DNA of 64,000 nt from Sulfuritalea sp. Its GTDB lineage: Bacteria; Pseudomonadota; Gammaproteobacteria; Burkholderiales; Rhodocyclaceae. Of this stretch, positions 2,808 to 51,178 are shown piece by piece (within the stretch, counting starts at the first letter, position 1; each line of letters starts with the position of its first letter). The notes beneath the pieces are model-generated. The model had not been told where the DNA came from. It saw only the letters and a list, made by a program, of their open reading frames with translations, and did not search any database. Both the position numbers and the translations under genes were made by a program. The stretch covers positions 1 through 64,000 of the forward strand of contig JAIPCF010000004.1 of the NCBI GenBank assembly GCA_021738385.1, given 5' to 3'.

Positions 2808-4514
2808 ATGGCACGTCCTGAAAAAATTCGTCTTGGTGACATGCTGGTACAACAGGACCTCATTACCGGGGAGCAACTCAAACTCGCGCTGGATGAACAA
2901 AAACGCTCGGGTCGCAAGCTCGGCCGTGTATTGGTGGAAAGCGGCTACGTCACCGAAGAGGGTATTTCGACCGGACTGGCCCGCCAGTTGGGAGCGGAGT
3001 TTGTCGACCTCAAGACGTTTCGGCTTCAGCTGGATCTGATCAAACTGTTGCCGGAAGCTCAGGCGCGTCGTCATCGCGCGATGGTGTTGAAGGAGCGCGA
3101 CGGAATACTCATCGTCGGCATGGCCGATCCCACTGATCTGACGGCGTTTGATGAACTGGCGCGCATCATGAAGCGCGAAATTGATCTTGCCGTAGTGACT
3201 GAAAGCCAGCTATTGGCCGCGATCGATCGCGTCTATAGTCGCGCGGCCGAGATCAGTGGTTTGGCGAAGGAACTTACGGCCGACATGGGCGATGTATCGA
3301 TCGAATTTGGCAACATTCTTGGGCTCACTGCGGGCGCCGAAGATGCACCGGTCGTCAAACTGCTCAACACGGTGTTTGAAGAAGCGCTGAAAATGCGCGC
3401 GTCAGACATCCATATCGAACCGCAGGAAAAGTCGCTGCTGATCCGATTCCGTATTGACGGCGTGCTGCATGTGCAAACCGAAGCCGATTCGAAAATTTCC
3501 ACGGCCCTGGTGCTGCGTCTGAAGCTGATGTCCGGGCTGGATATTTCGGAAAAGCGCCTGCCGCAGGACGGCCGTTTTAACATCCAGCTACGCAACACCG
3601 CGATCGATATCCGGATTTCGTCGATGCCAACGCAGCATGGCGAATCGGTCGTCATGCGTTTGCTGGCGCAGAACACGGGCTTGCTGCAACTCGAAAAGCT
3701 GTACATGCCGCCGCGCATTCTCGAGCGCTTTCGCAACTCCATTTCGCGACCTTCCGGCATTGTGCTGGTGACCGGCCCGACTGGCTCGGGCAAGACCACC
3801 ACCTTGTATGCGGCGCTCAACGAACTGAACACGCCCGAAAAGAAAATCATCACCGTCGAAGACCCGGTCGAGTACCGCCTGCCCGGGCTCAATCAGGTGC
3901 AGGTGCACGAGAAGATCGATCTCTCATTCAGTCGCGTGCTGCGCACCGCCTTGCGGCAAGACCCGGACATCATCCTGCTGGGCGAAATGCGTGACCAGGA
4001 AACGGCGGAGATCGGCATGCGCGCCGCGATGACCGGCCACCTTGTGCTATCGACCCTGCACACCAACGATGCGCTGTCGACACCGATCCGATTGCTCGAT
4101 ATGGGCGTGCCGCGCTACATGGTCGCGCTGTCGATCCAGATGGTGCTGGCGCAACGCCTGCTTCGCGTCACCTGCCAAAACTGCTCCGCGCCCTACACGC
4201 CAACACCACACGAGCATTTGTGGCTTGAGGCAGAGCTTGGCGATGGAGTTGACGGGGTCGAATACAAGAAAGGTCAGGGCTGCAGTCACTGCGCCAATAC
4301 CGGTTACCAGGGCCGTCAGGCGGTGTATGAAATTCTCGATATGAACAATGCACTGGTCGAAGCGGTAAACCGCGGCGATCCCAACGAGTTCATGCAGATC
4401 GGCCGCGAGCAAATGGCCGGCAACACCCTGCGCCGCGATGCCGTGCGACTGGTCGTCAGCGGGCGCACCACCATCGAGGAAGCGATGCGGATTAGTACTC
4501 AATTGGACGAGTGA
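2808..4514 (+). CDS. mshE: MSHA biogenesis / GspE-PulE family ATPase MshE
   Basis: Walker A 'GPTGSGKTTTLYAAL', 'GEMRDQETAEIGMRAAMTGHLVLSTLHTND', CxxC zinc motifs, N-terminal MshEN-like repeats. Followed by mshG and mshI-N. Confidence 0.9.
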   Translation: MARPEKIRLGDMLVQQDLITGEQLKLALDEQKRSGRKLGRVLVESGYVTEEGISTGLARQLGAEFVDLKTFRLQLDLIKLLPEAQARRHRAMVLKERDGILIVGMADPTDLTAFDELARIMKREIDLAVVTESQLLAAIDRVYSRAAEISGLAKELTADMGDVSIEFGNILGLTAGAEDAPVVKLLNTVFEEALKMRASDIHIEPQEKSLLIRFRIDGVLHVQTEADSKISTALVLRLKLMSGLDISEKRLPQDGRFNIQLRNTAIDIRISSMPTQHGESVVMRLLAQNTGLLQLEKLYMPPRILERFRNSISRPSGIVLVTGPTGSGKTTTLYAALNELNTPEKKIITVEDPVEYRLPGLNQVQVHEKIDLSFSRVLRTALRQDPDIILLGEMRDQETAEIGMRAAMTGHLVLSTLHTNDALSTPIRLLDMGVPRYMVALSIQMVLAQRLLRVTCQNCSAPYTPTPHEHLWLEAELGDGVDGVEYKKGQGCSHCANTGYQGRQAVYEILDMNNALVEAVNRGDPNEFMQIGREQMAGNTLRRDAVRLVVSGRTTIEEAMRISTQLDE

Positions 4515-4522
4515 ATAGATGA

Positions 4523-4953
4523 TCACCACGGCGACACGGTGAAATGCTTGATTGTGCGGATGAGCTTGCGACGAGTGTGCTGGATGCAGCATTTGATGTG
4601 CATCGTGAACTTGGGCCTGGATTGCTGGAATCCGTCTATGAGGCCGCTTTGGTATTTGCGCTGACTGATCGTGGCTTGAGCGCCAGGCGTCAAGTGGATA
4701 TCAACGCCACATACCGTGGGCATGACCTTGGAGTCGCGTTCCGTGCCGATCTTGTTGTCAATTCCTGCCTGTTGCTCGAATTGAAAGTCGTTGAACAATT
4801 GCAACCGATACATATTGCCCAGATAATGACTTACTTGAAGCTGTCGAATATCAGGCGCGGCTATCTGCTCAACTTCAACGTCAAGTTGCTAAAGGAAGGC
4901 ATTAAGCGTGTTTCACTCTGATTTTTCGCCGTGTCGCCGTGTCGCCGTGGTGA
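4523..4953. repeat. Cassette bounded by a 17-bp perfect inverted repeat (TCACCACGGCGACACGG / CCGTGTCGCCGTGGTGA) enclosing a GxxExxY ORF
   Basis: Left arm 4523-4539, right arm 4937-4953 are exact reverse complements. The right side carries an extra GTGTCGCC unit (4929-4936). Confidence 0.85.
4544..4921 (+). CDS. GxxExxY family protein (PD-(D/E)XK nuclease-like)
   Basis: 'HRELGPGLLESVYEAAL' contains GLLESVY. 'FRADLVVNSCLLLELKVVEQL' gives a D...ExK arrangement. Confidence 0.85.
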   Translation: MLDCADELATSVLDAAFDVHRELGPGLLESVYEAALVFALTDRGLSARRQVDINATYRGHDLGVAFRADLVVNSCLLLELKVVEQLQPIHIAQIMTYLKLSNIRRGYLLNFNVKLLKEGIKRVSL

Positions 4954-4959
4954 AATAAA

Positions 4960-6195
4960 ATGCCCAATTTTGCCTATCGCGGACGCAATAGCGCCGGGGA
5001 GATTGAGCAAGGCGTGCTGGAAGGTGCGACAGCCGGTGCGGTGGCTGATCTACTGTTCGGTCGCGGCGTGACTCCAATGGAGATAAAACCTACAACAGCC
5101 TCCATTGGGGGAACTGAGGGTGGCTCCGGTATAAATTTCAAGCTATTCAAGCAAAAAGTCGAGCACATGGATGTTCTGCTGTTCTCACGGCAGATTTACA
5201 CGTTGTTGCGTGCCGGCGTGCCGATCATGCGCGCGCTGGCCGGCCTGCAGGAATCGAGCACCAATTCGGCGATGAAGGACGTGCTGCAGGATGTGCGCGA
5301 AAGCCTGGATTCCGGTCGCGAGTTGTCACTTTCACTGGCGCGCCATCCCAAGGTATTCACACCCTTTTATCTGTCCATGGTGCGCGTTGGCGAAATGACC
5401 GGACGGTTGGAGGAAGTGTTTCTGCGCATGTTCGATCATCTGGCGTTCGAGCGTTTCATGCAGGACCAGGTCAAGTCGGCGCTGCGCTATCCCTCGTTTG
5501 TCGTCGCTGCCATGGGCATCGCCATCGTCATCGTTAACATTTTCGTAATTCCGGCCTTTGCCAAGGTGTTCAAGGGGTTTGGTGCCGAACTGCCACTGAT
5601 GACGCGCATCCTGATCGGGTTTTCGGATTTCATGCTGAACTGGTGGCATGTCTTGTTGCTTGGAATCGTTGGCGGGATTTTTGCATTCAATACCTGGCGC
5701 AAGACAACCAAGGGTCGCTACACCTGGGATCGCTTCAAGTTGAATATTCCGATCGCCGGAAAGATTGTCCGCAAGGCCACGCTGGCGCGTTTTGCGGCAA
5801 GTTTTGCCTTGGCCTCGCGTAGCGGAGTGCCGATCATTCAGGCCCTGACCAACGTCGCGGAAACGGTCGACAATGCCTACATCTCTGACAAAGTCGAAAA
5901 AATGCGTGACGGCGTAGAGCGCGGCGAAAGCATATTGCGTACCTCAATCGCCGCGGGTGTGTTCACGCCTGTTGTATTGCAGATGATCGCCGTCGGCGAA
6001 GAGTCCGGGGCGCTCGACGACATGATGAAAGAAGTCGCCGACATGTATCAGAGCGAAGTCGAGTATGAGTTGAAGACGCTGGCGCAGCAGATCGAGCCAA
6101 TACTGATTATTTCGCTGGGCATCATGGTTCTGATTCTCGCGCTTGGCATCTTCCTGCCCTTGTGGGATCTGGGCAAAGTGACCATGAAGAAGTGA
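4960..6195 (+). CDS. mshG: MSHA biogenesis inner membrane protein MshG (GspF/PilC family)
   Basis: Duplicated T2SSF domains: 'LFSRQIYTLLRAGVPIMRAL', 'FAASFALASRSGVPIIQAL', C-terminal 'EPILIISLGIMVLILALGIFLPLWDL'. Confidence 0.9.
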   Translation: MPNFAYRGRNSAGEIEQGVLEGATAGAVADLLFGRGVTPMEIKPTTASIGGTEGGSGINFKLFKQKVEHMDVLLFSRQIYTLLRAGVPIMRALAGLQESSTNSAMKDVLQDVRESLDSGRELSLSLARHPKVFTPFYLSMVRVGEMTGRLEEVFLRMFDHLAFERFMQDQVKSALRYPSFVVAAMGIAIVIVNIFVIPAFAKVFKGFGAELPLMTRILIGFSDFMLNWWHVLLLGIVGGIFAFNTWRKTTKGRYTWDRFKLNIPIAGKIVRKATLARFAASFALASRSGVPIIQALTNVAETVDNAYISDKVEKMRDGVERGESILRTSIAAGVFTPVVLQMIAVGEESGALDDMMKEVADMYQSEVEYELKTLAQQIEPILIISLGIMVLILALGIFLPLWDLGKVTMKK

Positions 6196-51081: not shown

Positions 51082-51089
51082 TTGCATTC

Positions 51090-51163
51090 ACCACGGCGGG
51101 CACGGCGACACGGCGGAAAGCCATGTCTTTCAATTTTTACCGTGTCGCCGTGCCCGCCGTGGT
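51090..51163. repeat. 9-nt-periodic perfect 24-bp inverted repeat (hairpin, no ORF) between gap and pgk
   Basis: ACCACGGCGGGCACGGCGACACGG (51090-51113) / CCGTGTCGCCGTGCCCGCCGTGGT (51140-51163), exact reverse complements. Confidence 0.9.
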
Positions 51164-51178
51164 TAAAGGATTTTTCCG

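Follow-up and report, generated by a model that had tools for sequence, protein, structure and literature searches.

A GxxExxY nuclease-like gene flanked by inverted 7-nt word arrays is probably the gene-bearing member of a small mobile DNA family

Introduction

In REPIN/RAYT systems, REPtrons and TIRtrons, a single-gene unit lies within repeats and is accompanied by many gene-less palindromic doublets (PMC3116915, PMC2817692, PMC8266576, PMC3733652), an arrangement that GxxExxY elements share. The repeat family of a REPIN/RAYT system is specific to its gene, and the same holds for GxxExxY elements. In contrast, RAYT and TIRYT belong to the IS200/IS605 group of HUH tyrosine transposases, whereas GxxExxY is an unrelated protein with a predicted PD-(D/E)XK fold, and REP arms consist of one hairpin with a GTAG tag, whereas GxxExxY arms are built from iterated 7-nt words. 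MITEs are likewise short, gene-less and dispersed, with inverted ends in common with a gene-bearing element. Unlike MITEs, the GxxExxY family has a gene-bearing form without an insertion-sequence transposase, its interiors are often unrelated within a genome, and no target duplication was seen around its elements, the flanks of filled and empty sites being too diverged between species for one to be read.

A further design is that of the Coxiella intervening sequence, which has heptamer repeats and terminal inverted repeats, and whose published protein belongs to the S23 family, unrelated to GxxExxY (PMC4990558). Heptamer repeats such as TAACTGA have been reported with no mechanism seen by which they might be transferred (PMC4679880). 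GxxExxY proteins occur widely among environmental bacteria, annotated by family name only in the records examined; in PMC8934634 the family is mentioned only in passing. In open-access PMC text, we found no relevant paper for the exact arm strings, and none joining the S23 and GxxExxY array observations.

Results

The cassette at the mshE–mshG junction

The window is a stretch of 64,000 nucleotides at the start of a contig of a Sulfuritalea sp. assembly, and the features discussed here are listed in Table 1. The original prediction described a precise inverted-repeat cassette around one open reading frame. A perfect 17-bp inverted repeat is indeed present (4523-4539 and 4937-4953), the 20-nt arms (4523-4542 and 4934-4953) match at 95%, the ATG lies four bases past the 17-bp left arm, and the right side carries the one extra unit that had been noted, with three minus-strand units against two plus-strand units on the left. 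The unit had been put at about 9 nt, which needs correcting, as the period here is 8 nt (a 7-nt core plus a 1-nt linker) and 8–10 nt family-wide. The cassette had also been said to split mshE and mshG; it does sit between the two genes, but neither is broken. That these genes are normally neighbours agrees with 17 congeners in which they are directly adjacent. The gene-bearing form that we found carries GxxExxY only.

Table 1. Positions of the cassette, its host genes and two gene-less palindromes in the window
Feature	Position	Strand	Remarks
mshE, host gene upstream	2808..4514	+	T2SSE + MshEN, E 6e-130; 8 bases between its end and left arm
Left inverted array: TCAC + CACGGCG (4527-4533) + CACGGTG (4535-4541)	4523..4542	+	
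GxxExxY protein gene, 125 aa	4544..4921	+	PF13366 E 8e-40, TIGR04256 E 5e-40
Conserved codon E29	4628-4630		
Conserved codon D69	4748-4750		
Conserved codon E79	4778-4780		
Conserved codon K81	4784-4786		
Conserved codon Q93	4820-4822		
Right inverted array: three CACGGCG units (4943-4949, 4935-4941, 4927-4933) + TCAC	4927..4953	-	
mshG-type host gene, downstream	4960..6195	+	T2SSF, E 3e-55
Short gene-less palindrome, CRCRGAG subfamily	16378..16459		matches arms of second GxxExxY gene
Short gene-less palindrome, CACGGCG subfamily	51088..51165		site empty in 19 same-genus genomes

A minimal nuclease fold

The reading frame was proposed to encode a GxxExxY protein with a D...ExK pattern, and this is what the profiles return: PF13366 and TIGR04256 both score about 136 bits (curated cut-offs 22 and 35) and cover positions 2-117 and 2-115, respectively, with E29, D69, E79 and K81 in place. 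All four are invariant among 33 aligned sequences drawn from many phyla, and Q93 is conserved in 90% or more of these. The AlphaFold2 model (pLDDT 96) matched SSO0001, which we take to be a Cas4 protein, with a Foldseek probability of 1.0 and lambda exonuclease with 0.99, all matches being distant (best E 1.5e-3), and a Holliday-junction resolvase appeared lower in the list. The alpha/beta core of the model, with D and ExK in the predicted active site, places the protein in the PD-(D/E)XK superfamily and supports the view that GxxExxY is by fold a minimal RecB/Cas4-like nuclease. It shares the predicted fold and the D...ExK...Q layout with RecB, Cas4 and lambda-exonuclease types; unlike these, it has only 125 residues and stands alone in its cassette. 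No solved structure was recovered as a relative by sequence search. A defence system was considered and rejected, the PADLOC matches being weak (E 0.006 and 0.013).

Arrays of a 7-nt word flank GxxExxY genes in many phyla

Each arm repeats a 7-nt core, CACGGCG in the window cassette and CRCNRAK in general, with linkers of 1–3 nt between the units, and judged by eye the arms start with TTnACC or similar. Between the two arms of an element, mismatches occur at 29% of core positions 4 and 35% of linker positions compared with 0–6% at the other core positions, positions 1 and 3 having been fixed by the search pattern. This degeneracy fits the pattern expected if a protein recognises each unit. Linker lengths are the same in both arms of one element and variable among elements; for linkers of 2–3 nt, agreement was 0.66–0.68 within elements and 0.32–0.39 between them.

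Of the 89 GxxExxY genes sampled in relatives and in other phyla, 76 have inverted arrays on their flanks. The enrichment that had been called for as a check was found: the alignment threshold was reached by 83% of 48 GxxExxY genes but by only 1.4% of 483 shifted windows, which had equal geometry and lay elsewhere in the same loci, and by 13% of mispaired flanks. In the phylum sample, units of the CRCNRAK kind were present at all 27 testable GxxExxY genes, 22 of which reached the threshold. Of 83 cassettes, 54 point the same way as both neighbours and four the opposite way to both; since the gene mostly follows the direction of both neighbours, its expression probably depends on host operon transcription. 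One cassette lies between fabD and fabG on a Sphingomonas replicon, and seven plasmid records contained a match. A phage origin was rejected, as no phage record matched. In the phylum sample, genomes of family f72 hold several GxxExxY copies each and many truncated fragments, as expected for decaying mobile genes.

Dispersed palindromes without a gene

The arm motif CACGGCGACACGG occurs exactly 53 times in the 3.34-Mb assembly, compared with 0 for the reversed control, and the copies are mostly facing pairs, some tens to about 150 bases apart, with no gene between them. A second GxxExxY gene of this assembly, at the edge of contig C142, starts inside a ACCACAGAGACACAGAGACACAGAG arm, which accounts for the second dispersed family, CRCAGAG, with 89 matches. 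In this assembly, at L049 (G000:C82), palindromes of one word are nested in the loop of a palindrome of another word, and by coordinates palindromes of different words are also nested in G006:C35:4042-4282. At a relaxed threshold, the Rfam matches of the short elements were mostly to eukaryotic microRNA models, all below the gathering score, and these were set aside as hairpin artefacts.

Empty sites and recurrence at unrelated loci

Empty mshE–mshG junctions, which the original prediction suggested looking for in relatives, were found in 17 congeners, where the gap is 1–9 bases. At this junction, the window genome and its sister G014 carry the cassette, and G016 has a degenerate form. In G004, G003, G030 and G031, the junction holds a different GC-rich hairpin repeat of the CCCC...GGGGCGGCC type (loci L153, L155, L161 and L169). 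The 51-kb site of Table 1 is filled in G004 and G016 by different subfamilies. Comparison with relatives' loci (L265, L266, L267, L286 and L291) presents it as a repeated landing site, with different subfamilies or unrelated hairpins in G000, G004, G016, G006, G017 and G074.

In G002, a complete genome, elements with a constant geometry and homologous 84-nt interiors lie at unrelated loci, while the similarity of their flanks is at or near background. These CRCAGAT elements (L294-L313) have three units per side with linkers mostly of 2,3 and 3,2; the 84-nt interiors of six elements are homologous to one another, as are the 73-nt interiors of one pair, and others have interiors of 13–27 nt. Empty sites together with homologous elements at unrelated loci indicate movement, and the mobility of the element family is thus well supported. 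The interiors in G000 and G082 differ widely and look unrelated by eye, and we therefore rejected the idea that all short elements arose from the gene cassette by simple internal deletion.

The word diversifies with the protein

Mapped onto a 75-protein tree, the word class changes six times compared with 22.5 times with shuffled labels, and none of 200 shuffles did as well. The classes track protein clades that mix phyla: the CRCNGAT class unites Burkholderiales, Acidobacteriota, Calditrichota and Cloacimonadota, and the CACGGCG protein of the window clusters with an Acidobacteria protein whose word is CACGGGG. Three tree contrasts were searched for specificity residues, and some columns stood out, but without parallel residues.

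Gene and dispersed copies also go together. Across 101 genomes of the order, in which four words were counted, high dispersed-arm counts were found in 19 of 25 gene-positive and 10 of 76 gene-negative genomes (Fisher 1e-8), and within the genus in 11 of 13 and 6 of 18, respectively (p = 0.009). Furthermore, the dispersed word matches the arms of the genome's own gene, with 0 of 20,000 permutations as good. For CRCAGAT, five carriers were predicted before counting (G002, G004, G029, G047 and G095), and the outcome agreed in part: the top three counts were all predicted (G002, 179; G029, 65; G004, 64), counts were low in G047 (12) and G095 (4), and the counts in G001 (41), G081 (35), G027 (34) and G006 (32) had not been predicted. 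The main unexplained observation is the ten gene-negative genomes with many copies, several of which are incomplete assemblies, so either copies outlive the gene, or incomplete assembly hid the gene, or a different factor is at work. Gene decay after spread would also give copy-rich genomes that lack the gene.

A parallel in S23 genes

Inverted arrays were also present at all 13 S23/PF05635 genes above the cut-off in relatives, with a period of 7 in 11 of them, compared with 0 of 76 control windows. Their words include GGGGCTA, GTTGAGG, GTGAAAC, GGCAAGA and GGATGAA, among others (23S_rRNA_IVP; L177-L185, L190-L193). Like GxxExxY elements, S23 elements have a single small gene with inverted short-word arrays on both sides; unlike GxxExxY elements, they have an unrelated protein family, different words and a 7-nt period without a linker. 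S23 elements with 7-nt arrays may represent a second, independent solution of the same design.

Discussion

The cassette is probably the gene-bearing member of a small mobile DNA family, mobilised by a GxxExxY nuclease that recognises and cuts the arrays. That the reading frame and the palindrome form one mobile element, as originally proposed, is upheld by the arms across phyla, the empty sites, the gene-less copies and the co-diversification of word and protein. In the mechanism that we propose, inverted arrays of a 7-nt word would form the ends of the element, the GxxExxY protein, probably expressed through host operon transcription, would recognise its word, and the nuclease would cut at or near the arrays; the cassette and the gene-less palindromes with matching arms would then insert, mostly in intergenic gaps. 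The protein had been suggested to act on the palindrome, and the sequence patterns argue for its recognition of the repeat units; action beyond recognition, that is, cutting and its chemistry, we infer. The substrate may be duplex, single strand or cruciform, and the element may move by copying or by cut-and-paste. By analogy, the best reading is that the element would work like REPIN/RAYT systems, with which it has in common a repeat-bracketed gene unit and dispersed doublets of the same repeat. It falls outside the REPIN/RAYT class because the partner gene is PF13366 and not an HUH tyrosine transposase.

Co-diversification and own-word matching need recognition and not cutting, and the arms are placed right at the start codon, the expected binding site of an autoregulator; GxxExxY might therefore be a regulator or chromosome organiser that only binds its word, the palindromes being its sites and spread by another enzyme or by recombination. 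We regard this as unlikely, as D69, E79 and K81 are invariant across many phyla, the gene itself is bracketed on both sides, and the family has moved. It is more doubtful still that a REP-type tyrosine (Y1/HUH) or other transposase moves the palindromes, with the GxxExxY gene as a passenger between two of them, even though the architecture resembles REPtrons and TIRtrons (PMC3733652) and Y1 genes occur in many of these genomes, that of the window included. Y1 genes (PF01797) do not correlate with copy number (21/29 versus 45/72, p = 0.37), and on this ground RAYT was rejected as the mobiliser; the genome richest in copies, G016, has no Y1 gene, and across phyla the word of a passenger gene would not stay in step with the phylogeny of that gene.

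The original prediction also allowed for self-processing and linked some GxxExxY proteins to rRNA intervening sequences. In an RNA-level element, the arms would pair in the transcript, the stem would be processed, and the protein or RNase III would act on RNA, a reading to which the identical linker-length pattern of both arms, the closer agreement of 2–3 nt linkers within elements than between them, the usual operon orientation of the gene and the shared form of S23 intervening sequences (PMC4990558) all lend something. Sense-strand arm mismatches, however, show no excess of G-U over A-C (114 versus 115) and gather at core position 4 and in the linkers. S23 elements are best known inside 23S rRNA genes, whereas the window copy lies between protein genes and no rRNA match (Rfam) was found in 20 relatives' loci, so that the link was not reproduced, self-processing of RNA finds no support, and an RNA-level element appears improbable. 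Finally, palindromes are abundant in these genomes and could bracket GxxExxY genes by chance, with no functional tie; the low rate in shifted windows, the coupling of word and protein, and the own-word matching leave coincidence a negligible chance. GxxExxY stands as the most likely factor to recognise and cut the arrays.

A nuclease-like gene with cognate palindromes, whose word varies with the protein across many phyla, suggests a type of small mobile DNA element not previously recognised. On balance, we lean slightly towards a transposable-element class spanning multiple phyla, whose sole encoded protein, a 125-residue Cas4/RecB-like nuclease, would mobilise its own cassette as well as gene-less palindromes; if this is true, a PD-(D/E)XK nuclease would join the few enzymes capable of driving an entire mobile element. 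The S23 arrays may be relevant to heptamer repeats such as TAACTGA, which lack an explanation (PMC4679880). The word–protein coupling gives GxxExxY proteins a concrete, testable role and names the likely source of the abundant CRCNRAK palindromes in many genomes, and the word–protein pairs offer a ready set of specificity variants of a very small protein that recognises DNA.
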